A program made the position numbers and the translations under genes. Shown here piece by piece: positions 43,360 through 55,064 of a DNA stretch of 64,000 nucleotides. The stretch spans positions 1 to 64,000 of the forward strand of contig NZ_FONV01000009.1 of assembly GCF_900113015.1 (NCBI RefSeq), in the 5' to 3' direction. The notes beneath the pieces are model-generated. The model did not search any database. It saw nothing but the letters and a program-made list of their open reading frames with translations, and was not told the origin of the DNA. Origin of the DNA: Actinoplanes philippinensis (lineage in GTDB: Bacteria; Actinomycetota; Actinomycetes; Mycobacteriales; Micromonosporaceae). Position 1 is the first letter of the stretch, and each line of letters begins with the position of its first letter.

Positions 43360-43430
43360 GGGAGACATCATGGTGCCCGGCCGCCCGCAGCGTGGCCCCT
43401 CCGGGCCATGGCCGAGAAACCTGGCTGTCT

Positions 43431-43440
43431 TCCTAGGATG
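43431..43440. repeat. TCCTAGGATG motif, copy 1
   Basis: First of three TCCTAGGATG boxes in 2.4 kb, followed by ATTTAGGG. It contains TAGGAT, an actinobacterial -10-like element, and the rare AvrII sequence. It is upstream of the Cys-rich gene (minus strand) and beside the broken TPR gene. Confidence 0.5.
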
Positions 43441-43472
43441 ATTTAGGGAGTGTGGCGTCGGTCGGCCGGTAC

Positions 43473-43706
43473 TCACTCCGGCGAGTCGATGAGGTCGAGT
43501 GTCTCCAGATGGGCGCGGATCTCGGCGGCCGTGGGCATGCCGAGTTCGGTGTAGAGACCCAGGGCCACTTCGCACTGGCCCTGGGTCTCTACACCGTTAC
43601 TCCTCTGCCCGGCCATTCCCGCGTGTGCCGCGGCCTGCTCGTCCCGAGCGTTCATACCGAGCGTGATCGTCGAACGGCGGTCCAGCTTCGGCGTCTGCGG
43701 CAACAT
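43473..43706 (-). pseudogene. Truncated TPR-protein 3' end interrupted by an inverted repeat
   Basis: The readable C-terminus (segment CEVALGLYTELGMPTAAEIR and on to the stop at 43473) looks like the last TPR helix pair of larger AfsR-like or TPR regulators of actinomycetes. Upstream of it on the minus strand, the sequence is an inverted copy of part of the same coding region (hairpin 43547-43596), and no TPR sequence follows. The gene therefore appears broken, with only about 35 residues of homologous C-terminus left. Translation as a 77-residue protein is possible but not convincing. Confidence 0.5.
43547..43596. repeat. 21-bp perfect inverted repeat with 8-base loop
   Basis: Arm 43547-43567 (containing GTAGAGACCCAGGGCCA) is the exact complement of 43576-43596; the loop is CTTCGCAC. 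The stem is far longer than an ordinary terminator and lies inside the TPR remnant. It may be a scar of inverted duplication. Confidence 0.85.
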
Positions 43707-43784
43707 GGTCGGCGCCGGTTGGCAAGGAGCGCGCGTTGTCCGGAGAAGGGCGGCGCCCGGGGAGACACGCCGATCCCACTAGTA

Positions 43785-43794
43785 TCCTAGGATG
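43785..43794. repeat. TCCTAGGATG motif, copy 2
   Basis: Second box, preceded by ACTAGTA and followed by GCCTAGAG. TAGGAT could be the -10 of a promoter for the secreted protein gene at 43943, giving a leader of about 140 bases. Confidence 0.5.
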
Positions 43795-43942
43795 GCCTAG
43801 AGCACGTGGCCCTGAGAACCAGAACGACGGCTTCGCCGGCTGACCCCTGTCGAGTGGTCTGTGGGGGAGGGCCGGGAGCTGTCGGGCTTTGGTGGTTAGC
43901 GTCGCGGTGGGGTGGAACGATCGGCGACTCAGGAGAGTTCAC

Positions 43943-44434
43943 ATGCGATCGCCAGCGCGTCAGCTCCTGGCGGCGGTGTCGGCGGCCGCCGGTCTGGTCC
44001 TGGTTCCGGCGCCGGTCGCCGCTCACGACCGTGGTCCGGTGCGGGGCTTTCAGGTGCCGGGGCCCTCGCCGCGCCCGGATCTCAAGGGCAAGCGGCTGCG
44101 GTGTGACGGCGGGCCGGCGACGTTCCTGATCGATCCCGAGGGCTATCGGCGGGGCATCCCGACGGCGGCGGTGGGGACGAAGCTGTTCGCCGACACGGTC
44201 AAGGTCGAGTTCAAGGGGTGTGACTCGATTCCGCTGGCCGGGTATTTCAGCCAGGACGCGTACCTGGCCCGGTTGTCCGGGACGTTCGATCTGTTCCTGG
44301 TCACCAACGGGGTCAGGTACGCGATCGCGGACGCGGCCACCTTCGACGCGTTCCACTTCGACTGGGACAAGGTCATAGTGCTGTCGGTGGGCGAGCTGCG
44401 GCGGATACCGCTCGCGGCGACCTGGCGTATCTGA
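43943..44434 (+). CDS. Secreted protein with two internal beta repeats
   Basis: The protein has 163 residues from ATG 43943, chosen for AGGAGAG at 43931 and because a signal peptide starts right there (cleavage near APVAAHD). The mature part has two similar units: ATFLIDPEGYRRGIPTAAVGTKLF and DLFLVTNGVRYAIADAATFDAFHF. Each is a beta hairpin plus helix, a repeat seen in secreted actinomycete proteins of unknown role. There are two Cys and no catalytic motif. It ends with a convergent SRPBCC gene. Confidence 0.72.
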   Translation: MRSPARQLLAAVSAAAGLVLVPAPVAAHDRGPVRGFQVPGPSPRPDLKGKRLRCDGGPATFLIDPEGYRRGIPTAAVGTKLFADTVKVEFKGCDSIPLAGYFSQDAYLARLSGTFDLFLVTNGVRYAIADAATFDAFHFDWDKVIVLSVGELRRIPLAATWRI

Positions 44435-44467
44435 GCGCCGCATCAGGCATTGCTCACCCGGGACCGG

Positions 44468-44495
44468 CCCGGCCCGCGCGCTGTCGTGGGCCGGG
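44468..44495. terminator. Putative shared terminator
   Basis: CCCGGCCC (44468-44475) pairs with GGGCCGGG (44488-44495) between the convergent secreted-protein and SRPBCC genes. The stem is short and has no T-run. Confidence 0.4.
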
Positions 44496-44512
44496 TTCGG
44501 CCCTGTGACGCT

Positions 44513-44992
44513 TCAGGGCTGGGGCCGCAGCCGGCTGCCCGGGCGCAGCCGGCCCTGGTCGTCGAGGTCGTCGAGCAGGGTGGGCAGTCCCTTGGACAGC
44601 ATCGTGCGCCGGACCCGGGCGAGCAGCCGGGACATGACGAAGCCTTCGATGCCGCGGAAGCCGGTGTGCTGGTAGGTGAGACGGGTGCCGGTGGCGGTCT
44701 CGTCGAGGCGGCAGGTGACGAGGCTCGGGGTGTCGGTCTCCTTGTTGCGCCAGGTGAAGCGCAGCAGTGCCGGGCGGTCGGCGGTGAGGACCTCGCAGCG
44801 GACGATTCCGTCCCAGCCGGGGACCGGCTTGCCGACGAAGCGGAACCGGGTGCCGGCCACGGGCTCGAATCCTTCCGGCCGGCCGCCCTGTCCGGTCGAG
44901 GTCCACAGCGGCACCAGCGCCGGGTCGGTCAGCGCCTGCCACACCACCGGCCGTGGGCGGGGGTACTCGTTGACGATGGTGAACTCGCTCAT
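44513..44992 (-). CDS. SRPBCC (AHSA1/polyketide-cyclase-like) ligand-binding protein
   Basis: The 159-residue protein has the START-like helix-grip fold: strand-helix start EFTIVNEYPRPRPVVWQALTDPALVPLWT, central strands with RFRFVGKPVPGWDG, and the long C-terminal helix GFVMSRLLARVRRTMLSKGL. These proteins bind a hydrophobic ligand. Its ATG has GGGAGAG about 8 bp upstream. It is divergent from a TetR gene with a 17-bp operator between, so its expression is probably induced by the ligand of that TetR. Confidence 0.82.
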   Translation of the reverse strand: MSEFTIVNEYPRPRPVVWQALTDPALVPLWTSTGQGGRPEGFEPVAGTRFRFVGKPVPGWDGIVRCEVLTADRPALLRFTWRNKETDTPSLVTCRLDETATGTRLTYQHTGFRGIEGFVMSRLLARVRRTMLSKGLPTLLDDLDDQGRLRPGSRLRPQP

Positions 44993-45018
44993 GTGACCGT
45001 CTCTCCCTCAGGCAATTT

Positions 45019-45035
45019 TTTACAGTCACTGTAAA
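45019..45035. promoter_or_regulatory. 17-bp TetR operator
   Basis: TTTACAG-TCA-CTGTAAA is a perfect dyad in the 90-bp divergent region between the SRPBCC and TetR genes. This form (TTTACAG..CTGTAAA) is a common TetR-family operator. Confidence 0.75.
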
Positions 45036-45082
45036 CAAGTGGGTTGCTGTACGCCAGCTTCGGGAGCCGGTATCTTCGAGGC

Positions 45083-45769
45083 GTGCCCGATCTGCCTGCG
45101 CCCGCACGAACCTCGTCGCCGGGGCGCGACCACCTCGCCGGGAACGGGTCCGAGCCCCTGCGCGAGCGGCGCCGGCGGGAGCTGCGGCGGCAGCTGTCGG
45201 AGGTGGCGACCCGCATGTTTCTGGATCGTGGCTTCGACGCGGTGCGCGTGGCGGATGTCGCGCGGGCCTGCGGGGTGGCCGAGAAGACTGTCTTCAATCA
45301 TTTCCGTACCAAGGAATCCCTGCTGGTGGACCGTTGGGAGGAGCAGACCCGGGCACTGTGCGACGGCCTGGCCGACCCGGACACCGCGCCGGTGGACGCG
45401 GCGCTGGCGGTTCTGGACGGCGAGCTGGCCTTCCTCACCTCGCCGGCCAGTCAGCGGGCGGGTGGATTCGGCGTCGACGAGCTACGCCGCTTCAGCCGGC
45501 TCGTCGCCTCCACGCCGTCGCTCGTGGCACACAACCGGGAAGCTCTGGACCGGCTGACGGCGGCGGCCGCCGCGGCGCTCGCCGGCCGTACCCGGAGCGC
45601 TCCTGAGGATCCGGAGGCGTGGATCACGGCTGTCGCGCTGGCCGGGCTCTGGCAGGTCTACACGGTCAGCCTGCACCGGCACCTGGACGGTGACGACCCG
45701 GCCGCGATCGGCCGAGCCGTCACCGTCGACCTGCGGCGCGCCGCGGGCAAGCTGCGTGGTGGCATCTGA
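45083..45769 (+). CDS. TetR-family transcriptional regulator
   Basis: The protein has 228 residues from the GTG at 45083 (CGAGG upstream). The HTH (ARACGVAEKTVFNHFRTKESLL) is typical of TetR and starts about 40 residues into the protein, after a disordered Arg/Pro tail. The C-terminal helices form the ligand domain. It is divergent from the SRPBCC gene and very likely binds the 17-bp dyad at 45019-45035. Confidence 0.87.
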   Translation: MPDLPAPARTSSPGRDHLAGNGSEPLRERRRRELRRQLSEVATRMFLDRGFDAVRVADVARACGVAEKTVFNHFRTKESLLVDRWEEQTRALCDGLADPDTAPVDAALAVLDGELAFLTSPASQRAGGFGVDELRRFSRLVASTPSLVAHNREALDRLTAAAAAALAGRTRSAPEDPEAWITAVALAGLWQVYTVSLHRHLDGDDPAAIGRAVTVDLRRAAGKLRGGI

Positions 45770-45790
45770 CGACGAGGTCGCGTCGTTCCA

Positions 45791-45800
45791 TCCTAGGATG
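45791..45800. repeat. TCCTAGGATG motif, copy 3
   Basis: Here the box is part of a perfect 12-bp palindrome, CATCCTAGGATG, followed by CGTTAGAGG. Like copy 2 it precedes a GACGGCTTCGCCG element. Confidence 0.5.
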
Positions 45801-45810
45801 CGTTAGAGGT

Positions 45811-45828
45811 GGTGCGGCAAGCCGCACC
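45811..45828. terminator. Hairpin after the TetR gene
   Basis: GGTGCGGC and GCCGCACC form an 8-bp stem with a 2-base AA spacer, 42 bp past the TetR stop. It may end the TetR transcript or fold at the 5' end of a transcript starting at the TAGGAT box. Confidence 0.45.
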
Positions 45829-46095
45829 CGGTCAAAACCTATAAGGACGGCTTCGCCGACACGACAAGGGATTCGGTAAGGTGTCGTTCGTGACTGCCGG
45901 GTCGGCCTTGGGCCATTACCGAGTGGGGCACCCGGCTGACGCGTGATCGCCGGGCGGCCGCCACGGTCGCCTGTTGCCCGCGCTCGTTCGCCGCCTGATC
46001 GTTCGTCTTTCTCTGCGTGTGGCCGTCTGTGTGACGGCGGATTTCTGCTGCCCGCCGGTGTGCGGGTTTTCTGGGTGGACTACCGAAAGCTGAGA

Positions 46096-46932
46096 ATGTC
46101 GAACGATTTCAACTCTTCTGTCATCGCCGAGTTCCGGGCCAATCAGGGCCGGGTCGGTGGGATGTTCGAGGGTGGCCGGCTGTTGCTGTTGACGACGACC
46201 GGTGCCCGCAGTGGGCGGCCGCACACCGTGCCGCTGGGTTATCTGCCGGATCAGGATCGGGTTCTGGTGATCGGGTCGGCTGGTGGGTCCCGTCGTCATC
46301 CGGCGTGGTTCCACAATGTGCTCGCGGATCCGGTGGTCCGGGTCGAGGACGGTCCGTTCGTGTACGAGGCGACGGCGACCGTGCTGACCGGTGCGGAGCG
46401 GGACGAGGTGTTCGCGCGGGCTGTCGAGCAGGATTCCGGGTGGGCCGATTATGAGCGGCGTTCCGGGCGGGTGTTGCCGGTGGTGGCGTTGCGGGCGGTG
46501 CCGGTCGCGGGGCCGCCGCGGTCGAGTGGTGGGTCGCCGTCGTCGCCGGTGGAGGTGTTGCGGCTGGTGCACGGCGCGTTCCGGCGGGAGCTGGAGTTGA
46601 TCCGGCGCGAGGTGGTGGCGTCGGGTGCGGTGGTGGGGGCGCAGTTGCGGGTGAACTGCTTGACGTTGTGCGCGAATCTGCACGGCCACCATGTGAAGGA
46701 GGATCAGGGGCTGTTCGCGATGCTGGAGTATGCGCATCCGGAGCTGGCTTCGGCGGTCGGGGAGTTGCGGGCCGAGCACGGTGTGGTGGCTGTGTTGCTG
46801 GAGCGGTTGCGGTCGGTGCTGGGGGAGCCGGGTGTGAGCCGGGAGGCGTTGCTGGCCGAGGTGGATGCGTTGACCGGTGATCTGATCGCGCATCTGGATC
46901 GTGAGGAAGCGGTTCTGGCCGGGGTCCGGTAG
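46096..46932 (+). CDS. Deazaflavin-dependent reductase fused to a hemerythrin domain
   Basis: The protein has 278 residues from ATG 46096. Residues 1 to about 135 match the DDN/F420-dependent nitroreductase family split beta-barrel (LLLLTTTGARSGRPHTVPLGYLPDQDRVLVIGSAGGSRRHPAWFHNVLADP). Residues about 150-275 form a hemerythrin-type helical bundle with metal-ligand candidates HGAF, HGHHVKED, HPEL, EHGV and HLDREE. The fusion suggests a redox enzyme using F420H2 with an O2- or redox-sensing diiron partner. The start lacks a strong ribosome site. Confidence 0.85.
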   Translation: MSNDFNSSVIAEFRANQGRVGGMFEGGRLLLLTTTGARSGRPHTVPLGYLPDQDRVLVIGSAGGSRRHPAWFHNVLADPVVRVEDGPFVYEATATVLTGAERDEVFARAVEQDSGWADYERRSGRVLPVVALRAVPVAGPPRSSGGSPSSPVEVLRLVHGAFRRELELIRREVVASGAVVGAQLRVNCLTLCANLHGHHVKEDQGLFAMLEYAHPELASAVGELRAEHGVVAVLLERLRSVLGEPGVSREALLAEVDALTGDLIAHLDREEAVLAGVR

Positions 46933-46941
46933 GGGCTGGGG

Positions 46942-46979
46942 GCTGTCCCGGAGGTTTGCTGTCAGGTCTCCGGGACAGC
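46942..46979. terminator. Shared terminator hairpin
   Basis: A 12-base perfect stem (GCTGTCCCGGAG at 46942-46953 with its complement at 46968-46979) spans the space between convergent genes and includes the last codons of the FAD monooxygenase gene. Confidence 0.65.
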
Positions 46980-48494
46980 GTCGGCGAGGGTGCGTGCGGG
47001 TGCGCCGAAGTGGCGGGTGAGGGCGGCGCGGAGGGTGTCGTGGGTGCCGGCTGACCAGGCGGTGAAGCAGTCGGGGCGGACGAGGAGGGCGGTGGCGGTG
47101 GTGCCTTCGAGGTGGCCGGTGAAGATGTCGACGCGGTCGTTCCAGGGTGCGGCGGTGGGTGCGTAGGCGCCGGTGGAGTCGAGGAGCAGTGGCCGGGCGG
47201 TCCGGGTGAGCTCGGCGAGGGTGCGGGGGCCGTGGTCGGTGTGGATGGTGAGGTCGGGGGTGATGCGGCCGGCGAGGGGGTCGGTGGGGTCGCTGGGGTA
47301 GTGGGTGTCGGCGCCGGACATGAGGGCGGCGATGTGGGCGGTGACTTCGGGTTTGTGGAGTAGTTCGGTGAAGAGCTGGCGTAGGCCGGTGATGTCGTCG
47401 CCGGGGCTGATGAGTGCGGATTGGGCGCGGGTGGACATGACGACGCGTTCGGCGACGGGGCGGCGTTCGGTTTCGTAGGTGTCGAGCAGGTCGGGTGGTG
47501 CCCAGCCGTGGAGGGTGGCGGCGAGTTTCCAGCCGAGGTTGGCGGCGTCCTGGAGGCCGAGGTTGAGGCCGGGGCCGCCGATGGCGGGGTGGACGTGGGC
47601 GGCGTCGCCGAGCAGGAGGATGCGGCCGGTGCGGTATCGGGTGGCGATGCGGGTGTTGCCGGCGGTGAGTCGTCGGAGGAGTCCGGGGTGGTCGGGTGGG
47701 TTGATGGGGATTTCGGTGCCGAGGACGCGGGTGACGCTGGTGCGGAGTTCGTCGAGGGTCATGGGGGTGTCGTCGTCGGTGGTGGGGGTGTCGGGCCATT
47801 CGGTGGTGCCGAGGATGGCGGGGCGGCCGGGGAAGGGTGCCCAGACGATGAGGCCGTGGGGTGTGCGGGTGTGCTGGAAGGGTGGGACGGTGCCGTATCC
47901 GGGGGCGTTGATGGCGCCGGTGTGGGGGTCGAGGGCGCTGGTGGGGATGGTGACGTTTGCGGTGCGGGAGATGGTGCGGTCGTGGGTGACGCCGGGGAAG
48001 TCGATGCCGGCGAGGCGGCGTACGGTGCTGCGGCCGCCGTCGGCGCCGATGAGGTATCGGGTGGTGATCCGGGTGCCGTCGGCGAGGGTGGCTTCGATGC
48101 TGTCGGGGTGTTGGTGCAGGTCGGTGAGGTGGTGTCCGCGGCGGATGTCGGCGCCGAGTTCGAGGGCGCGGGTGGTGAGGGCGGCTTCGAGTTGGGCTTG
48201 GGGTATGCCGAGGCCGTAGTGGGGGTTGTCGTGGAGGGTGGTGAGGTCGAGGGGGAAGCCGCCGAAGGTGAAGGCGGGTTGGGGGGTGGGTGGGTCGGGG
48301 TTGCCGGTGAGTCGGCTGTGGAGGCCGCGGCGGTCGAGGAGTTTGACGACTTGGCCGATGAGGCCGTTGGCGCGGGGTTCGTGGGTGGGTGTGGGGTGGC
48401 GTTCGAGGATGACGGGGTGGATGCCGGCGAGGGCGAGTTCGCAGGCGAGCATGAGGCCGTTGGGTCCGGCGCCGATGATGAGGGCGTCGATCAT
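46962..48494 (-). CDS. FAD-dependent aromatic monooxygenase (PheA/TfdB family)
   Basis: The 510-residue enzyme has the FAD-binding GAGPNGLMLACELA fingerprint at the N-terminus. The DG motif is LIGADGGRSTVRRLAGI, the second FAD motif RILLLGDAAHVHPAIGGPGLNLGLQDAANLGWKLA, and the C-terminal domain is thioredoxin-like. These NAD(P)H-dependent enzymes hydroxylate aromatic polyketides, phenols or rifamycin-like drugs. The ATG at 48494 has AAAGGA upstream. The TetR gene 71 bp before it on the same strand probably senses its substrate and forms an operon with it. Confidence 0.88.
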   Translation of the reverse strand: MIDALIIGAGPNGLMLACELALAGIHPVILERHPTPTHEPRANGLIGQVVKLLDRRGLHSRLTGNPDPPTPQPAFTFGGFPLDLTTLHDNPHYGLGIPQAQLEAALTTRALELGADIRRGHHLTDLHQHPDSIEATLADGTRITTRYLIGADGGRSTVRRLAGIDFPGVTHDRTISRTANVTIPTSALDPHTGAINAPGYGTVPPFQHTRTPHGLIVWAPFPGRPAILGTTEWPDTPTTDDDTPMTLDELRTSVTRVLGTEIPINPPDHPGLLRRLTAGNTRIATRYRTGRILLLGDAAHVHPAIGGPGLNLGLQDAANLGWKLAATLHGWAPPDLLDTYETERRPVAERVVMSTRAQSALISPGDDITGLRQLFTELLHKPEVTAHIAALMSGADTHYPSDPTDPLAGRITPDLTIHTDHGPRTLAELTRTARPLLLDSTGAYAPTAAPWNDRVDIFTGHLEGTTATALLVRPDCFTAWSAGTHDTLRAALTRHFGAPARTLADAVPET

Positions 48495-48565
48495 GGTGTG
48501 GTCCTTTGTGGGCGTGGGTGATCGCCGCGGGGCCCGGTGGGGTCGCGGTGGTGGGTGGGTGTGGG

Positions 48566-49180
48566 TCAGGGGGTTGGGGTGGGGAGTCCGGCGGCGATCT
48601 GGGTGAAGGCGTCGGTGATGAGGTTTTGGATGGGGGTGGGTGTGGGGTTGTCGAGGTAGTGCTGCATGGCGACGGAGATGGCGGCGGTGGCGGCGGCGGC
48701 GACGAGCCGGGGGTACATGTCGGTGGGGTGGGTGCCGGTGCGGTCGGCGATGGCGGCGACGAGTTCGGTTTCGGCGATGGCGGTGGCGCGGAGTCGTTCG
48801 CCTTCGAGTGCGGGTTCGGCGAGCATGGCGCGGATGCCGGTGGCCCAGTGGGGGTGGGCGGGGGTGGGCATGGCGTCGACTTCGGGGCCGCGGGTGAATT
48901 GTTCGAGGGCGGCGGCGGTGAGGGCGGTCCAGAGGGGTTCGTCGGTGGGGCGTTGGCGGAGGGCGGTGGCGGTGCGGAGGCTGCGGTCGAGGTGGCGTGA
49001 GGCGATGGCTTCGGCTTTGCTGGAGAAGTAGTTGTTGAAGGTGCGGGGGGAGACGCCGGCTGCTTCGGCGATGTCTTCGACGCGGACGTTGTCGTAGCCG
49101 CGTTCGGCGGTGAGGTGGATGGCGGCCCAGCCGAGGGCTGCGCGGGTTTCGGCTTTTTTGCGTTCGCGGAGGCCGCTCAT
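48566..49180 (-). CDS. TetR-family regulator of the monooxygenase unit
   Basis: The protein has 204 residues from the ATG at 49180. The HTH (EAAGVSPRTFNNYFSSKAEAI) is of the MftR/AcrR-like TetR type. It is first in a two-gene unit with the FAD monooxygenase. A 36-bp double dyad lies 18 bp upstream of its start and should be its operator. The domain after the HTH is of unknown ligand preference. Confidence 0.87.
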   Translation of the reverse strand: MSGLRERKKAETRAALGWAAIHLTAERGYDNVRVEDIAEAAGVSPRTFNNYFSSKAEAIASRHLDRSLRTATALRQRPTDEPLWTALTAAALEQFTRGPEVDAMPTPAHPHWATGIRAMLAEPALEGERLRATAIAETELVAAIADRTGTHPTDMYPRLVAAAATAAISVAMQHYLDNPTPTPIQNLITDAFTQIAAGLPTPTP

Positions 49181-49197
49181 GTGTCCACCGTAGCTTG

Positions 49198-49233
49198 AAT
49201 TGCGTGGCACGCAAAGATGCGTGCCACGCAATT
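49198..49233. promoter_or_regulatory. Double dyad: two adjacent TetR operators
   Basis: Two near-identical 13-bp palindromes, TGCGTGGCACGCA and TGCGTGCCACGCA, flank AAGA. Together with outer AATT/AATT they give 16-base complementary arms (49198-49213 and 49218-49233). The element lies between the TetR start and the stop of the small secreted gene, so it may also terminate the latter. Confidence 0.75.
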
Positions 49234-49236
49234 TTC

Positions 49237-49464
49237 TTAGCCCCAGGGGTCCGTGAGGTCCATCCACGGGTCGGTGGGGCCGAGCGGGTCCGGCCACCGG
49301 TCGGGGCACGGGTCGTCGGGGTCCGGGTAGGGCCAGGTCAGGTAGTCGTACTCGGAGTAGTCGCCGACGATCGGCAGCGGTGGCGGGTCGGCGGCTCGGG
49401 CGGGGCCCGGGGTGAGCAGCAGGGCCCCGCCGGCGAGGCTGCCGATGAGGATCAGTGCGCGCAT
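49237..49464 (-). CDS. Small secreted Asp/Pro/Trp-rich peptide
   Basis: The 75-residue protein has a signal peptide (cleavage near GPARAADPP). The mature part is about 50 residues, rich in Asp, Pro, Tyr and Trp (YDYLTWPYPDPDDPCPD), with a single Cys. The ATG has AGGAGG 7 bp upstream, so translation is likely. It is acidic and probably unfolded or metal/peptide binding; function unknown. It is alone, with the TetR operator just downstream. Confidence 0.7.
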   Translation of the reverse strand: MRALILIGSLAGGALLLTPGPARAADPPPLPIVGDYSEYDYLTWPYPDPDDPCPDRWPDPLGPTDPWMDLTDPWG

Positions 49465-49693
49465 GAGATGCCTCCTGGTGATGGGTTGTCACCCAGAAGG
49501 GTGATCCGCTGTGCGTCCCGGTGTGGCGGGTTTCCGTAGCTGTCTCTGAACCGCTTCGCCGGTGAACCGCCGCCGGCCGGCGACCCACTCGAGCCCGCGT
49601 TGCAGTGCGGGCGCCTCATCGCTCGTTCACCCGGGCCGCGACGATCCGGGCGCGGCAGGCCTCTCAACTCGATCGTGAGGGAGGGGCGGGCGC
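49465..49693. other. Upstream region of the small secreted peptide gene
   Basis: Contains the small dyad TCACCC-AGAA-GGGTGA at 49489-49504, 24 bp upstream of the ATG at 49464. It may be an operator. Nothing else is recognised apart from unremarkable GC-rich sequence up to the GNAT stop. Confidence 0.4.
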
Positions 49694-50107
49694 TCAGGGG
49701 CGGACGAGGACGGTCCGGGTATGGGCGGGGCGGAATCCGGCGGCCTGGTAGAAGGCGGCGGCGGGGGTGTCGCGGCCGGTCAGCAGATACCAGTGGGTGA
49801 CGTCGGGCAGCTGCTGGGCGAGGTCGGTGAGCAGCCGGGCGCCGAGGCCCCGGCGCTGGTGGGCGGGGTGGACGCACATCTCCTGGAGCAGGAAGTGGTC
49901 GGTGGCGCCGTAGCGTTCGCGGTGGCCGATGGCGAACCCGGTGACGGCGCCGTCGTGGCCGGTGGTGTGGGTGGCGTGGGCGCGGGGTGTGGTGAGCATG
50001 TCGTGCAGGCGCTGGGTGGCGTCGGCCGGGTGCCAGGTCTCGTTCCACGGTGGGCGGGAGAACACGTCAACGTAGAGGCGGGCGTAGGCGTCGAGGTGGT
50101 CGAGCAT
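49694..50107 (-). CDS. GNAT-family acetyltransferase
   Basis: The 137-residue protein has the acetyl-CoA site QEMCVHPAHQRRGLGARLLTDLA (Q/RxxGxG/A) and the last beta strand FYQAAGFRPAHTR. GNAT enzymes transfer an acetyl group to an amine on a small molecule or protein. It is 3 bp after a second GNAT gene on the same strand, so the two form a unit. The acceptor is unknown. Confidence 0.85.
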   Translation of the reverse strand: MLDHLDAYARLYVDVFSRPPWNETWHPADATQRLHDMLTTPRAHATHTTGHDGAVTGFAIGHRERYGATDHFLLQEMCVHPAHQRRGLGARLLTDLAQQLPDVTHWYLLTGRDTPAAAFYQAAGFRPAHTRTVLVRP

Positions 50108-50110
50108 TCC

Positions 50111-50572
50111 TCAGAGGGTAAGGCTCAGGTGGACGCTGTTGGGGTCGGGGCGGTAGCCGGCGAACGGCGGGCACGGCTGGAACCCGAATCGCCGGTAGAG
50201 GGTGCGGGCGGGGTGGAAGAAGTCGCCGGCGCCGGTCTCCAGGTAGAGGTGCTGGTATCCGCGGTGGCGGGCCTCGGTGATGAGGTGGGTGAGCAGCGCG
50301 GCGGCGACACCGCGGCGCTGGGCGGTCGTGGCGGTGCGCATGGATTTGATCTCGGCGCCGGCCGGGTCGAGGTGTTTGAGGGCGGCGCAGCCGACGAGGT
50401 TGCCGTCGTCGTGGGCGGTCCAGACGGTGATGCCGGGGGCGCGGAGGCTGTCGAGGTCGAGGGCGTGTTTGCTCTCGGGTGGGGTGATGGCGCGCATCTG
50501 GTCGACGTGTTCGCGCAGGAGGGCGGCGATGGCGGGGCCGGTGAGGTCGTCGACGGTGATGTGCAGGGTCAC
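50111..50572 (-). CDS. GNAT-family acetyltransferase
   Basis: The 153-residue protein starts at GTG 50572. The acetyl-CoA motif is SMRTATTAQRRGVAAALLTHLI and the C-terminal strand LYRRFGFQPCPPF. It is similar in plan but not in sequence to the next GNAT gene, which begins 3 bp after its stop. Segments LDSLRAPGITVWTAHDDGNLVGCAALK resemble putative acetyltransferases of the YafP/PhnO-like group. The acceptor is unknown. Confidence 0.85.
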   Translation of the reverse strand: MTLHITVDDLTGPAIAALLREHVDQMRAITPPESKHALDLDSLRAPGITVWTAHDDGNLVGCAALKHLDPAGAEIKSMRTATTAQRRGVAAALLTHLITEARHRGYQHLYLETGAGDFFHPARTLYRRFGFQPCPPFAGYRPDPNSVHLSLTL

Positions 50573-50594
50573 GGCGGCTGATTTTACGGCGCCG

Positions 50595-51146
50595 TCACAG
50601 GTGCAGGGTCCATCCGCGGTGGTGGGTGAGGCGGATGACGGTGAGCGGGGCGACGGCGAGGCGGGGTGTGCCGGGTGGCAGGCCGAGGGCGGCGGCGACG
50701 ATCAGGCGGATCACCAGGGGGTGTGCTATGGCCGTACCTCTGGTGGTGGTTTGTCGTTGCAGCCAGCCGGTGAGGCGGCCGGACGCGGTGGTGAGGGATT
50801 CGCCGCCGTGGGGTGCCGCGGTGGGATCGGTGAGGAATCGCTGGAGGGCGGCCGGGTCGATCTGGTCGAGGGGGCGGCCGGTCCAGGCGCCGAAGCCGGG
50901 TTCGGCCAGGGCCGGGTCCTCGGTGGTGGCGGGGGCGTCGAGCAGGTGTGCGGTCTGGCGGGCGGCTCGGGTGGGTGCGATGAGCCAGGGCCGGTCGTCG
51001 GGGAACAAGCGTGGCAGCAGCGCCGGGGAGTCCTTGAGGGCGCGGGTGGCGGTGCGGCCGGCGTCGTCGAGGGGGTCGTCGCCGCCGAACACGGCCCGGC
51101 GCAGGGCGGGGGTGTGTCCGGCGGCGATCAGCCGTAGTGCGGTCAT
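50595..51146 (-). CDS. Histidine-phosphatase-fold protein with degenerate RHG motif
   Basis: The 183-residue protein has the CobC/phosphoglycerate-mutase-like fold (LDDAGRTATRAL, APHGGESLTTASGRLTGWL, AIAHPLVIRLIVAAALG). The usual RHG at the N-terminus is AAG (LIAAGHTPAL), so the catalytic His and its Arg seem lost, while a later His is kept. It starts inside the end of cbtA (ATG 51146 versus stop 51143). It is probably a non-enzymatic cobalt or cobalamin accessory. Confidence 0.7.
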   Translation of the reverse strand: MTALRLIAAGHTPALRRAVFGGDDPLDDAGRTATRALKDSPALLPRLFPDDRPWLIAPTRAARQTAHLLDAPATTEDPALAEPGFGAWTGRPLDQIDPAALQRFLTDPTAAPHGGESLTTASGRLTGWLQRQTTTRGTAIAHPLVIRLIVAAALGLPPGTPRLAVAPLTVIRLTHHRGWTLHL

Positions 51147-51874
51147 GCGGCGGTGACGGTGGCTTTCTGCCGGGCGGGGGTGATCAGTCCGGCGAAGCCG
51201 ATGCCGAGGGCGGTCCAGAGGATCGCCTGGGTGCCCAGTGACGAGATCCGGAAATCCCACAGCAGGGTGGCCGGGAAGTCGGCGGGGACCTCGTGGAAGG
51301 TCGGCAGCAGGGTGTAGGCGATGCCGACGACCACCAGGAACGCGGCCGTGCCGGCGGCCGCGCGGCGCCACTGGTGGCTCTGGGTGCGGGCGGCGAGGAC
51401 GGCGGCCCAGACGGCGACCAGGCCCAGGGCGAGCACTGCCAGGTAGGCGGCGGTGCGCTGGTCGATGGTGTCGGGGTTGCCGACCGCGGGCGGGTTCGGC
51501 GGGTATTTCAGGAACGGGACCACGACGATGCCGGTGAGAGCGGCGGCGGCCAGGCCGAGGGCGGCCTGGGTGTCGCTGCCGGTGCGCAGGTGCCGGCGCA
51601 GCAGGGTGTAGGCGGTGGCGAGGATCCCGCCGAGCGCGACGCCGTAGAGGCCGGTGGCCAGGAACAGCCCGACGGTGCTCTGGATGTCGCGCTCGACGAG
51701 GGGCGCCTCGCCACCGGCGCCGCCGGATGCGGCTTCCTCGATGGCGATGGCGGCGTTGATGTGCGGCTCACCGGCCAGGTAGGCGAAGCCGCCGGCGAGC
51801 AGGCCGGCGGCGAGGCCGGCCAGCAGGCCGCGCAGCAGCAGCGGCAGGTAGCCGGGCCGGTTGCTCAGTGGCAC
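51143..51874 (-). CDS. cbtA: Cobalt transporter subunit CbtA
   Basis: The 243-residue protein has five predicted helices: LPLLLRGLLAGLAAGLLAGGF (helix 1), the His/Glu segment EPHINAAIAIEEAAS typical of CbtA, and four more segments. CbtA with CbtB forms a predicted cobalt importer controlled by cobalamin. It starts at GTG 51874, inside the end of cbtB, and the phosphatase-like gene starts inside its end, so all three are coupled. The whole unit is under the B12 riboswitch upstream. Confidence 0.88.
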   Translation of the reverse strand: MPLSNRPGYLPLLLRGLLAGLAAGLLAGGFAYLAGEPHINAAIAIEEAASGGAGGEAPLVERDIQSTVGLFLATGLYGVALGGILATAYTLLRRHLRTGSDTQAALGLAAAALTGIVVVPFLKYPPNPPAVGNPDTIDQRTAAYLAVLALGLVAVWAAVLAARTQSHQWRRAAAGTAAFLVVVGIAYTLLPTFHEVPADFPATLLWDFRISSLGTQAILWTALGIGFAGLITPARQKATVTAA

Positions 51875-52059
51875 GGGACACCGAGCAGGTGGCGGCCGTC
51901 GTGCATCAGCTCGTGCAGGTACATGCCGCTCTGGGAGAGCGCGCCCTGGTCGAAGGCGACGAGGTAGGCCAGCAGGAGCATGAGCCCGGTGAAGCCGGCG
52001 GCGGTGGCCAGGAGCTTGCCGGAGACCGCGGGGGTGGTGAGGGCTTGTGCCTTGGGCAT
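51865..52059 (-). CDS. cbtB: Cobalt transporter subunit CbtB
   Basis: The 64-residue single-pass protein has the characteristic His-rich C-terminus HELMHDGRHLLGVPCH that would bind cobalt. Its ATG has AGGAGG 11 bp upstream, between the riboswitch and the gene. It overlaps cbtA by 10 bp. Confidence 0.9.
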   Translation of the reverse strand: MPKAQALTTPAVSGKLLATAAGFTGLMLLLAYLVAFDQGALSQSGMYLHELMHDGRHLLGVPCH

Positions 52060-52089
52060 GGTGGAGTGAACCTCCTACGGGATGACGCG

Positions 52090-52225
52090 TCCCGATCGAT
52101 GGGGCCTGCGGCGCATGAGCGTCCTGACTCACGGCCCTCTGGCTGAGGCCCGTTCACAGTGGCGCGACCGCACCGGACTTGCACCGGTTTCCCTCACACA
52201 CCGCAGAATTGGCTGGTCTCAACCT
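52090..52225 (-). ncRNA. Cobalamin (B12) riboswitch
   Basis: On the minus strand this leader has the conserved core in order: GGGAAACCGGTGCAAGTCCG-like helix (52171-52195), GCGCCACTG (box from 52157-52165) and the B12 box region GAGTCAGGACGCTCATGC (52113-52130). These match the known consensus order and sequence of cobalamin riboswitches. It lies immediately upstream of cbtBA. It should shut down cobalt uptake when adenosylcobalamin or related forms are abundant, probably by masking the AGGAGG ribosome site at 52071-52076. Confidence 0.93.
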
Positions 52226-52302
52226 AACGGCCGGGGTGGCCGTGGCACAACCGGGCACGGGTAGCATCCACGCCGGTCGCTGGGGTACGGGGGTGGGTCG
52301 CG

Positions 52303-53490
52303 GTGCGGGTGATGGCGGCGGTCGCGGCGGGTGTCGTGGCCGGTGGGCTGGTGGCGCCGGCGCTGCCCGCGGTGGCGGCGCAGTGTCTGGGCGCGGGCAC
52401 GGTGGCGGCCGGGGTGCCGGGGGAGCTGCGGGCGTATTCGCCGGAGCGGCTGGCCGGGCTGGCGACCGGCGCCGGGGTCAGGGTCGCGGTGATCGATTCG
52501 GGTGTGGATGTGCGTCATCCGCAGCTCACCGGCCGGGTGGCGGCGGGCCGGGACCTGTTGCACGGCGCCCCGGACGGGCGGCGTGACTGTGTCGGGCACG
52601 GCACGGCGGTGGCCGGGATCATCGCGGGCCTGCCGGACGGCGGGACCGGGGTGCGGGGGCTGGCGCCGGGGGCGACGATCATCCCGGTGCGGGTGACCGA
52701 GGACACCGACACCAGGGGCCAGCAGCAGATCCCGCGGTCCCGGTCGAGTGCCGACACGTTCGCCGAGGCGATCCGGTGGGCGGCCGGCCCGGCCGGCGCC
52801 GACGTGATCAACATCTCGCTGGTGATGGACGAGCCGGACCCGGCGGTGCGCGACGCGATCGCGGCGGCGGTGCGCACGGGTGCGGTGGTGGTCGCGGCGG
52901 CCGGCAACGGCGGCGCGGACGCGCCGGTGGCGTACCCGGCCGGGTTTCCCGGGGTCGTCGGCGTCGGCGCGGTCACCGCCGACGGGGTGCTGGCCGACTA
53001 CTCCCAGCCGGGCACGCAGGTCGACATCGCGGCGTTCGGTGACCAGGTGACCGTGCTGTCGCCGGTCCGCGGGCACCGGGCGGTGCAGGGCACGAGTTTC
53101 GCCGCGCCGTTCGTGTCGGCGACGGCCGCGCTGCTGCGGGAACGGTATCCGGCCGACAGCGCCGAGGAGATCGTCGACCGGCTGCTGCGGTCGGCCGACC
53201 CGGCCCCCGGCGGGGCCCGCAGCGCCCGGTACGGGGTGGGGCTGCTCAACCCGTACCGGGCGCTGACCGAAGCCGCCGGCCCCGTCGTCGCCGCCGTGCC
53301 CGAGGGTCCGGTGGCGCCGGTGGCCGCGCCCGGCCGGGACACCGCCTGGCAGCGGGCCGGGGTGTTCACGGCCGGCGGCGCCGCGCTCGCGGTGCTCGCC
53401 GGGCTGGTGGCCGTGGTGGTGTCGCGGGGACGCCGGCGGGGCTGGCGGGCTGCCGCCGACACCCATCGTCATGATCAAATGCCCGGATGA
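52303..53490 (+). CDS. Mycosin-type S8 serine protease
   Basis: This 395-residue subtilase has a signal peptide (cleavage near PAVAAQ). The catalytic Asp is in VIDSGVD, His in CVGHGTAVAG, the oxyanion Asn in AAGNGGA and the Ser in GTSFAAPFV. A C-terminal membrane helix is followed by a basic tail. This membrane-anchored layout is typical of MycP mycosins, which process substrates of type VII secretion. No ESX genes (EccB, EccC, EccD, WXG100) are in the window, so it is an orphan. It overlaps the SUFU-domain gene by ATGA. Confidence 0.9.
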   Translation: MRVMAAVAAGVVAGGLVAPALPAVAAQCLGAGTVAAGVPGELRAYSPERLAGLATGAGVRVAVIDSGVDVRHPQLTGRVAAGRDLLHGAPDGRRDCVGHGTAVAGIIAGLPDGGTGVRGLAPGATIIPVRVTEDTDTRGQQQIPRSRSSADTFAEAIRWAAGPAGADVINISLVMDEPDPAVRDAIAAAVRTGAVVVAAAGNGGADAPVAYPAGFPGVVGVGAVTADGVLADYSQPGTQVDIAAFGDQVTVLSPVRGHRAVQGTSFAAPFVSATAALLRERYPADSAEEIVDRLLRSADPAPGGARSARYGVGLLNPYRALTEAAGPVVAAVPEGPVAPVAAPGRDTAWQRAGVFTAGGAALAVLAGLVAVVVSRGRRRGWRAAADTHRHDQMPG

Positions 53491-53981
53491 AGTGGGACAC
53501 CGTCACCGAAGCCCTGAGCCGCCTCTACCCCCAGGCGCACCCGTGGCACGTGACATATCCGGCCGAGGGGTTCGCGTTACCGGCCGCGTCGGCGTATCCG
53601 GCCGACGGGCACTGGCACTACGTGTCGTACGGGCTCGGCGAACGGCACGGGTTCGAGCTGACGTTCCGGGTCGCCGGCGTCGGTGAGCAGCCGCCGCAGT
53701 GGCCGTTCCTGCTGCTCAACCAGGTCGCCGCGCTGGCCGCGCTGGCCGGTGAGGCGGGCGAGCCGTTCGAGGAGGGCCAGTGGGCCGACCTCGGCGCGCC
53801 GATCACCGGGCACCCGCACACCGACGGAGCGCCGACCGGGCTGACCGTGGTGATCCTGGCCGCCGACCCGCAGCTGGGCGGCTCGTTCCTGCAACTGGTC
53901 GGGGTGACCGCGGCCGAGGCGCAGGCCGGTGAGGTCGACAGCGACGATCCGCTGCTGGTCACCGACCCGGCCCGCGCGTGA
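53487..53981 (+). CDS. Suppressor-of-fused (SUFU) domain protein
   Basis: The 164-residue protein matches the bacterial SUFU domain: WHYVSYGLGERHGFELTFRVAG, QPPQWPFLLLNQVAALA and ITGHPHTDGAPTGLTVVIL. SUFU domains are immunity or adaptor modules in polymorphic toxin loci and unknown modules elsewhere. Its ATG overlaps the mycosin stop (ATGA), so it is translated with a secreted protease, an unusual pairing. It has no signal peptide and stays in the cytosol. Confidence 0.85.
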   Translation: MKWDTVTEALSRLYPQAHPWHVTYPAEGFALPAASAYPADGHWHYVSYGLGERHGFELTFRVAGVGEQPPQWPFLLLNQVAALAALAGEAGEPFEEGQWADLGAPITGHPHTDGAPTGLTVVILAADPQLGGSFLQLVGVTAAEAQAGEVDSDDPLLVTDPARA

Positions 53982-54099
53982 GCGGGGCTCGGCGGATGCC
54001 GGCGGCAAGCGATCTGCTCGGCCGTGCGGCGCCGCGGGACGGCGGCGCCGGGCAGCTGATTGCCGCGGCCGGCCGGGACCCGCGACGGCGGGCCGGCTG

Positions 54100-54864
54100 A
54101 TGCGGTTCCTGATCCTCGGTGGGACCGGCGGGCTCGGTGCGGAGCTGACCCGGCAGTGCGGTCCGTCGGCCACCGCTGCGGGCAGCCGCGACGCCGACCT
54201 TCGCGACCCCGCGGCGGTACGCGACCTCGTGCGCCGCGTGCGCCCGGACGTGATCGTCAACGCCGCCTACCGGCAGGACGACTGGGCGGTCACCGCCGAC
54301 GGCGCCGCTCACGTGGCCGTCGCCGCCCGCGCACACCGGGCCCGGCTGGTGCACGTGTCCAGCGACGCGGTGTTCTCCGGCCGGCCCGGCCGGTTCGACG
54401 AGACCTGCCCGCCGTGCCCGGCGACCATGTACGGGGCGGCGAAGGCAGCGGCCGAGACAGCTGTCCGGGCGATCGACCCGGCAGCTGTCGTCGCCCGGAC
54501 GTCGCTGATCGTCGGCGGCCCGCAGACCGTGATCGCCGCCCGCGTCCACGCCGGCGGCGTGTTCTTCACCGACGACGTGCGCTGCCCGGTCCACGTGGCC
54601 GACCTCGCGGCGGCGCTGCTCGAGCTCGCCGTGTCCCGGTATGCGGGGGTGCATCACGTCGCCGGCGCCGATGCGGTCAGCCGGTACGAGCTGGCGCTGC
54701 TGATCGCCGCCCGGGACGGCCTGGACCCGTCCGGGGTGGTCGCCGGGACGCGGGCGGCGGCCGGGCTCAGCGGCGCCGGGGACGTGCGGCTGGACAGTGC
54801 CGCCACCCAGGCCCGCCTCACGGTGACCCTGCGTGGCGCCCGCGACTTCCTCACCCCTGGCTGA
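54100..54864 (+). CDS. RmlD-like NAD(P)-dependent sugar reductase
   Basis: The protein has 254 residues from the ATG at 54100. The Rossmann site is LILGGTGGLGAEL. The SDR catalytic Ser/Thr is in VHVSSDAVFSG and the YxxxK in MYGAAKAAAE. The substrate domain resembles dTDP-4-dehydrorhamnose reductase, including FTDDVRCPVHVADLAAALLEL. It might reduce a nucleotide sugar or a similar ketone. No other sugar-nucleotide genes are near, so it may act on another small molecule. Confidence 0.8.
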   Translation: MRFLILGGTGGLGAELTRQCGPSATAAGSRDADLRDPAAVRDLVRRVRPDVIVNAAYRQDDWAVTADGAAHVAVAARAHRARLVHVSSDAVFSGRPGRFDETCPPCPATMYGAAKAAAETAVRAIDPAAVVARTSLIVGGPQTVIAARVHAGGVFFTDDVRCPVHVADLAAALLELAVSRYAGVHHVAGADAVSRYELALLIAARDGLDPSGVVAGTRAAAGLSGAGDVRLDSAATQARLTVTLRGARDFLTPG

Positions 54865-54906
54865 AGAACCTCCATGGCGGGGGCTTTGCCTGACGGAGAG
54901 GCTTTC

Positions 54907-54972
54907 CGTGGTGGATGGCGGCGGCCTTGTCGTGGATGGCGGCGGCTTTTCGTGGTGGAAGGCGGCAGGGGG
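54907..54972. repeat. Three tandem 22-bp repeats in an intergenic region
   Basis: Units begin CGTGGTGGATGGCGGCGG, GTCGTGGATGGCGGCGG and CGTGGTGGAAGGCGGC at 54907, 54929 and 54951. They lie between the RmlD-like gene and the AraC gene. They are probably slippage products; no function is evident. Confidence 0.7.
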
Positions 54973-55064
54973 CAGCGCCGACGGCGACCGGCCGGACGAC
55001 CGATTCCGGCGTGCCGGCCCACGCCGGAATCCTGAGGAGGGCAGCCGTGACCTGGGCCGGGAGG

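Follow-up and report, generated by a model that had tools for sequence, protein, structure and literature searches.

Dif-directed polar DNA elements in Actinoplanes philippinensis: Ter-like sites of a putative fork trap with a GntR/UTRA protein as candidate terminator

Introduction

Why does a 10-mer, TCCTAGGATG, recur three times between 43.4 and 45.8 kb of a DNA stretch from Actinoplanes philippinensis? Could such boxes be promoters of a special sigma factor, binding sites of an unknown regulator or the ends of a degraded small element, as an earlier note on this DNA had proposed? The window (the whole stretch analysed, 64,000 nucleotides) is the beginning of contig NZ_FONV01000009.1, here called C35. 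Following the boxes from the window to the genome and to the family Micromonosporaceae, we find that they belong to a longer element that points toward dif, and we think it likely that they are the cores of Ter-like polar terminus sites, forming a fork trap with a GntR/UTRA protein as the likely terminator. Few bacteria are known to have fork traps, and the reason for the existence of these traps is still debated.

Results

The boxes are parts of a longer repeated element

All three boxes were found where the earlier note had seen them, at 43431, 43785 and 45791 on the plus strand. Its finer observations hold as well: TAG elements lie 3' of the boxes, and GACGGCTTCGCCG follows copies 2 and 3. 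The suspicion that such a cluster would hardly arise by chance is borne out, as six matches to TCCTAGGATG with one mismatch allowed compare with 1.05 expected, a count reached in 0/100 shuffles. Copy 3 forms the middle of a 12-bp palindrome and is for that reason also read on the minus strand. Genome-wide (10.38 Mb, 58 contigs), TCCTAGGATG gives 15 strand matches at 13 distinct places; its reversed word, taken as a control, has no match in the whole 10.38-Mb genome. Six of the 13 places are on C35, in clusters at 43.4-45.8 kb (plus strand) and 147.0-151.5 kb (minus strand). The check proposed in the earlier note, whether the word is frequent, randomly placed or without conservation in relatives, did not go against it, given the 13 places in the genome and the copies in relatives.

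The repeated unit is longer than the 10-mer noted first. It spans about 76 bp, and the second cluster, 100 kb away, has the opposite orientation. Comparison of the copies gives CATCCTAGGATGCnTTAGAGG, then GTGCGGCAAGCCGCAC, then a spacer that varies in length, and lastly GACGGCTTCGCCGAC. The core common to the copies is CTAnnnTCCTAGGAnGnnnTAnnGGnnGTG, within which TAG is repeated around the TCCTAGGA palindrome, and two hairpins stand 3' of it; individual copies far from dif can miss one or other core part. A DNA search with the element in 60 relatives (E ≤ 0.01) returned matches in 35, many of them short and covering the hairpin-2 part only. The long matches came from the same genus and repeatedly formed two facing clusters, an arrangement that suggested a terminus system, from which a dif site lying between them was predicted.

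The elements face dif

A Frankia-type dif motif, taken from an excerpt of PMC3025954, has one match in the 180 kb examined and one in the genome, at C35:103666-103687, between the clusters. The elements of the A. philippinensis genome stand at 43.8 and 45.8 kb (plus) and at 147.0, 151.0 and 151.5 kb (minus), so that the clusters lie 58-60 kb to the left and 43-48 kb to the right of the single dif match and face each other. In one relative (G023), the dif match is contained in the dif published for Actinoplanes sp. SE50/110, as given in an excerpt of PMC3364876. Across 80 family genomes the motif occurred exactly once in 74 and not at all in 6; the reversed motif gave a single match over the same 80, in G249. 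In all 26 near-complete genomes, dif sits at 0.48-0.53 of the chromosome from dnaA.

Do the elements of other genomes point to dif as well? We built a covariance model, R1, from 39 aligned copies (46 sequences had been gathered, and 7 degenerate or truncated ones were left out). Its best 150 family hits comprise 106 on the contig that carries dif, 33 on other contigs and 11 in genomes without a dif match. Every one of the 106 points toward dif, 103 of them within 250 kb (median about 49 kb), and in 19 genomes both sides of dif are occupied on one contig by facing groups. When the core was searched without the hairpins, it was present in 73 of 80 element-bearing genomes, including copies far from dif; the reversed core had no match in any genome searched. 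Strict core matches number 0-12 per genome (80 genomes), and relaxed-pattern matches 2-9 (14 genomes).

Positions along whole chromosomes were read from the 26 near-complete genomes, 12 with the strict core pattern, listed in full, and 14 with a looser pattern; some genome sizes in these analyses are rounded to 0.1 Mb. All 114 exact core matches are oriented from oriC to dif and lie in the dif-proximal 60% of their arm, and 53 are no farther from dif than 2% of the arm; in these 26 chromosomes no core copy occurs in the oriC-proximal 40%. Seventeen draft genomes agree, with 36/36 of the core matches listed on the dif contig pointing to dif; matches on other contigs cannot be oriented. Nor does the polarity stem from a few inherited sites, since the 42 copies with flanks in hand fall into 29 flank clusters. 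Could it be borrowed from the neighbouring genes? By a crude gene caller, 8 of these 42 sites lie between convergent genes and 7 inside a called open reading frame (ORF), and the downstream gene runs in the same direction at 31 and in the opposite direction at 11. Flanking genes therefore do not explain the polarity, given the convergent sites and the opposed downstream genes.

Further features of the dif region were recorded alongside. The termination point could not be placed from GC skew, which was too noisy in windows of 5 and 10 kb; local skew at the clusters (window 45000-55000; C35 140000-150000) is strongly positive on the left and negative on the right, with the same signs, judged by eye, in six other genomes compared. 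A Xer-like tyrosine recombinase gene (C35 102351-103440, outside the window) lies about 0.24 kb from dif; in G010, G023, G062, G121 and G237, but not in G157, the start of a similar gene is at most about 1.7 kb away from dif. A 239-codon ORF (C35 111110-111827, likewise outside the window) has no Pfam or NCBIfam match and is found within about 8 kb of dif in 7/7 terminus regions compared.

The elements occur in one family of the samples

R1 matches at E ≤ 0.001 were obtained in 154 of 220 Micromonosporaceae genomes, representing 26 of 42 genera. The strict core pattern appears in 4 of 393 genomes sampled across the class, precisely the four members of Micromonosporaceae in the sample, and is absent from all 389 sampled class genomes outside the family. 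Over a collection of 84,980 species, the strict pattern of the element hits 48 stretches, all named Actinoplanes or bearing one of the related names Amorphoplanes, Paractinoplanes, Winogradskya and Couchioplanes.

A GntR/UTRA gene carries the box at its start

Which protein might read these sites? A trans factor was sought first next to dif and the near-dif elements, where conserved ORFs of 18 and 239 codons gave no lead; the GntR candidate emerged from the far core copies. In the A. philippinensis genome, one far TCCTAGGATG copy is separated by 22 bp from the start codon of a gene that runs divergently and encodes a GntR + UTRA protein of 263 amino acids. Searched against Pfam, the candidate matches above cut-off PF00392 (GntR, the N-terminal winged helix; 61.9 bits) and PF07702 (UTRA, C-terminal; 75.0 bits) and nothing else, neither Tus (PF05472) nor RTP (PF02334). 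Among proteins of solved structure, YvoA and other GntR proteins are nearest to it in sequence, with DasR weaker; the best E is 2e-9, and the similarity is mostly in the DNA-binding domain.

An ortholog (E ≤ 1e-45, one per genome) is present in 40/40 element-bearing genomes, in 5 of 12 R1-negative genomes of the family and in 0/28 genomes outside it. At the 30 loci examined, from 30 of the 45 genomes with a GntR match, TCCTAGGATG always stands upstream in the same divergent orientation, at most 100 bp from the start in 26 and at 128-496 bp in 4. In 26/26 near-complete genomes the gene is head-on to replication, on the left arm in 13 and on the right in 13, as one would predict for a gene with a site at its start that has to retain the oriC-to-dif polarity.

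Hairpins accompany the copies close to dif

Features of the element in the window, and the candidate gene, are collected in Table 1. Copy 1 is known mainly by its core and position, because of its low R1 score.

Table 1. Positions of the terminus elements in the window and of the candidate terminator gene
Feature	Position	Strand	Basis and remarks
Full terminus element (core, hairpin 1, A-rich spacer, hairpin 2), toward dif	45781..45860	+	R1 83.9 bits; 57.8 kb left of dif
Core of full element, TCCTAGGATGCGTTAGAGGTGGTG, putative protein-binding site	45791..45814	+	Conserved alignment columns; elsewhere core copies mostly without hairpin 1
Hairpin 1, GTGCGGCAAGCCGCAC, first GTG shared with core end	45812..45827	+	Arms near-invariant in Actinoplanes; pairs with altered stem in most copies of other genera
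Hairpin 2 of full element, CGGCTTCGCCG	45848..45858	+	Sequence, alignments, copies of other genera
Second element, core and hairpin 2 present, hairpin 1 lost, toward dif	43775..43840	+	R1 45.4 bits
Hairpin 2 of second element, CGGCTTCGCCG	43828..43838	+	Sequence
Vestigial third element, core only, weak match, same orientation	43421..43456	+	R1 14.8 bits, E=0.21
Candidate terminator gene, GntR/UTRA (HutC-type winged-helix)	contig C25, 482335-483123		Gene linkage

The hairpin arms hardly vary within Actinoplanes; in other genera the stems are altered yet paired in most copies, as found with a model that rewards pairing. A test keyed on the core only showed a hairpin-1 stem of at least 5 bp in 17 of 22 near-dif copies (shuffled mean 1.3) versus 3 of 20 far copies (shuffled mean 1.5). 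At the same stem length hairpin 2 is unsupported, with 5/22 near (shuffled mean 1.7, maximum 6) and 0/20 far (shuffled mean 2.2); the Actinoplanes stem measures 4 bp. Its loop reads TNC on the top strand, GNA on the bottom, in 39/39 aligned Actinoplanes copies, and TNC in just 10 of 28 hairpin-2 copies among those listed for other genera. GNA triloops make very stable DNA hairpins, which hints at a role of hairpin 2 in single-stranded DNA. T-rich tracts follow hairpin 2 in some genera. Between single-stranded DNA and transcription insulation we can only speculate, both roles being equally possible.

Neighbouring features

A perfect 21-bp inverted repeat with an 8-nt loop (CGGTGTAGAGACCCAGGGCCA) occupies window positions 43547-43596, between two elements and within a possible 77-codon ORF of the minus strand. 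Just 3' of the full element, at window 45890-45946, lies a short ORF, VTAGSALGHYRVGHPADA. Five other Actinoplanes loci have near-identical ORFs of 18 codons after the element, and another such ORF, in G121 (L220), has no visible element just upstream; possibly they encode a leader peptide. An AdoCbl (cobalamin) riboswitch (55.8 bits) is found on the minus strand at window 52068-52219.

Discussion

A candidate fork trap

What could be the purpose of an element that is conserved in one family of the samples, strictly polar with respect to dif and oriC, and linked to a GntR gene? In known fork traps, according to excerpts of three papers, ter sites point toward dif and, in their bound state, block forks that arrive from dif (PMC6549158); in Escherichia coli terB overlaps the tus promoter (PMC8347550), and ter sites cover about 43% of the chromosome (PMC13220808). 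The present layout resembles these traps in its sites toward dif, its site at the putative terminator gene and its wide spread, and from this resemblance we infer a fork trap with a GntR terminator. Forks travelling from oriC to dif would meet the sites in the permissive direction, and a fork that had run past dif would meet them from the other side and be stopped or slowed. The putative terminator would be the GntR/UTRA protein, encoded elsewhere in the genome with TCCTAGGATG just upstream of its own start codon. Gene linkage suggests that this protein binds the core, and analogy with known traps suggests that the complex may arrest forks in one direction. The hairpins of the dif-proximal copies may help, either by insulating transcription or as hairpins of single-stranded DNA. 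Since small ligands are the usual partners of UTRA domains, a metabolite-gated fork barrier is conceivable.

How does this arrangement compare with the two systems it most resembles? Excerpts of PMC8347550 and PMC13220808 describe for Tus/Ter several asymmetric sites (23 bp in E. coli) in two opposed groups that flank dif and take in a large share of the chromosome, with one site, terB, in the promoter of the terminator gene, tus; the box upstream of the GntR gene may be its counterpart. The Actinoplanes core is nevertheless unrelated in sequence, and two E. coli Ter core words have no match in the 180-kb terminus stretch. The candidate, with its GntR and UTRA domains, lacks a Tus domain, the phylum is different, and the Actinoplanes copies near dif carry hairpins. 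The RTP/ter system of Bacillus subtilis likewise has polar ter sites, placed around dif in opposed groups, and DNA-binding dimers (excerpt of PMC13220808). It differs in the protein, our GntR/UTRA candidate having no RTP domain match. RTP, too, is a winged-helix protein. The apparent function would thus be that of the known traps, served, as far as sequence tells, by unrelated sites and an unrelated candidate protein.

Among the papers listed in a search of open-licence literature, none was found to describe a fork trap in Actinomycetes, a GntR terminator or such sites. With somewhat more reserve we regard it as fairly probable that this is a third, independently evolved bacterial fork trap and the first in Actinomycetes, for which a one-component GntR/UTRA regulator would have been recruited as terminator, acting at polar sites of about 30 bp that are distributed across the terminus half of the chromosome and, in the innermost copies, carry hairpins.

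Several observations weigh against a fork trap. GntR plus UTRA is the architecture of metabolic regulators, and downstream of several far copies stand genes such as those of a likely acetyl-CoA synthetase and of a phosphatidyltransferase, as named by sequence reading; the sites may thus have a regulatory role. The majority of same-direction downstream genes, 31 of 42, belongs here too. A palindromic centre alone would not give polarity. Seven of the 80 element-bearing genomes have no strict core match, and 7 of the 12 R1-negative family genomes have no GntR protein at E ≤ 1e-45. The site at the GntR gene is often without other core parts, for example TA in the A. philippinensis genome, and the gene does not adjoin dif, being 5-46% of the arm away. 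Finally, 114 overstates the number of independent events, because many copies are orthologous and hence non-independent, and because inversions symmetric about dif preserve polarity.

Alternative explanations

Could the sites simply be operators of a GntR regulon, their replication polarity a by-product of gene orientation and inheritance? The candidate binder is indeed a GntR/UTRA protein, the same domain pair as in HutC-type regulators (YvoA/NagR, DasR), and the same-direction genes downstream of most sites, some of them ordinary metabolic genes, suit operators. The orientation is total (114/114), however, which is beyond mere bias; at the 8 sites that lie between convergent genes by the crude calls, one would not look for a promoter; in 26 chromosomes the arms are empty over their oriC-proximal 40%; the GntR gene itself is head-on in every near-complete genome, on either arm; and the clusters around dif face each other. 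Sequence similarity to the HutC-type regulators is weak, and the present sites, as a set, have a polarity relative to replication, with a protein found in one family of the sample alone. We judge this explanation, the best survivor among the alternatives, to be unlikely. Among the proposals of the earlier note, "binding sites of an unknown regulator" came closest: gene linkage makes the GntR protein the likely binder, but the sites behave as replication-polar terminus sites and not as ordinary operators.

Next, the sites might organise or mark the terminus as matS does with MatP, or orient a DNA translocase or condensin in the manner of KOPS and FtsK, without arresting forks. Terminus location and polarity would fit such a role, matS and KOPS being themselves terminus-related motifs; copy number, length and polarity pattern differ. 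KOPS are very numerous. They are octamers (excerpt of PMC6549158), and matS has 23 copies in an 800-kb domain (excerpt of PMC3330122), whereas the Actinoplanes site, about 30 bp long, has the few copies per genome given above, over up to 60% of each arm. A KOPS-type motif, short, in very many copies and along the whole arm, does not agree with the 0-12 strict matches per genome and the empty oriC-proximal 40%. A terminus-marking role of the matS or KOPS kind without fork arrest ranks behind the operators and has little probability in our view.

Might the element instead be a small RNA gene, with TAGGAT as its -10 box and hairpins 1 and 2 as RNA structure and terminator? The resemblance of TAGGAT to a -10 box, the stems that stay paired despite sequence change between genera and the T-rich tracts after hairpin 2 in some would suit such a gene. 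Yet most far copies are without hairpin 1 (present in 3/20), no -35 region is conserved, no Rfam family scores above threshold at the sites, and the supposed -10 box ends in T in just 69% of 78 copies. The pattern by which these copies were picked fixes core and hairpin-1 positions in part, and the columns concerned are conserved by construction. A small RNA gene is very improbable. The same T count and the 8 convergent sites of the crude gene calls also tell against the special sigma-factor promoters of the earlier note; a promoter with fixed gene orientation is not supported by these calls, in view of the convergent sites together with the 11 of 42 opposed downstream genes.

Remnants of a mobile repeat, suggested by multiple, partly palindromic copies and close to the degraded element ends of the earlier note, are scarcely credible for sites so few, with differing flanks, conserved across the family and strictly polar toward dif over many genera.

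Implications

If the fork-trap reading is true, a third unrelated trap in large circular actinobacterial chromosomes would mean repeated convergent evolution. With such a trap, ideas on the purpose of fork traps could be tested independently, and polar arrest could be studied on a defined pair of protein and site. Micromonosporaceae include producers of antibiotics and of acarbose; in this family the sites would also serve as a marker for the position of the terminus and for assembly errors.

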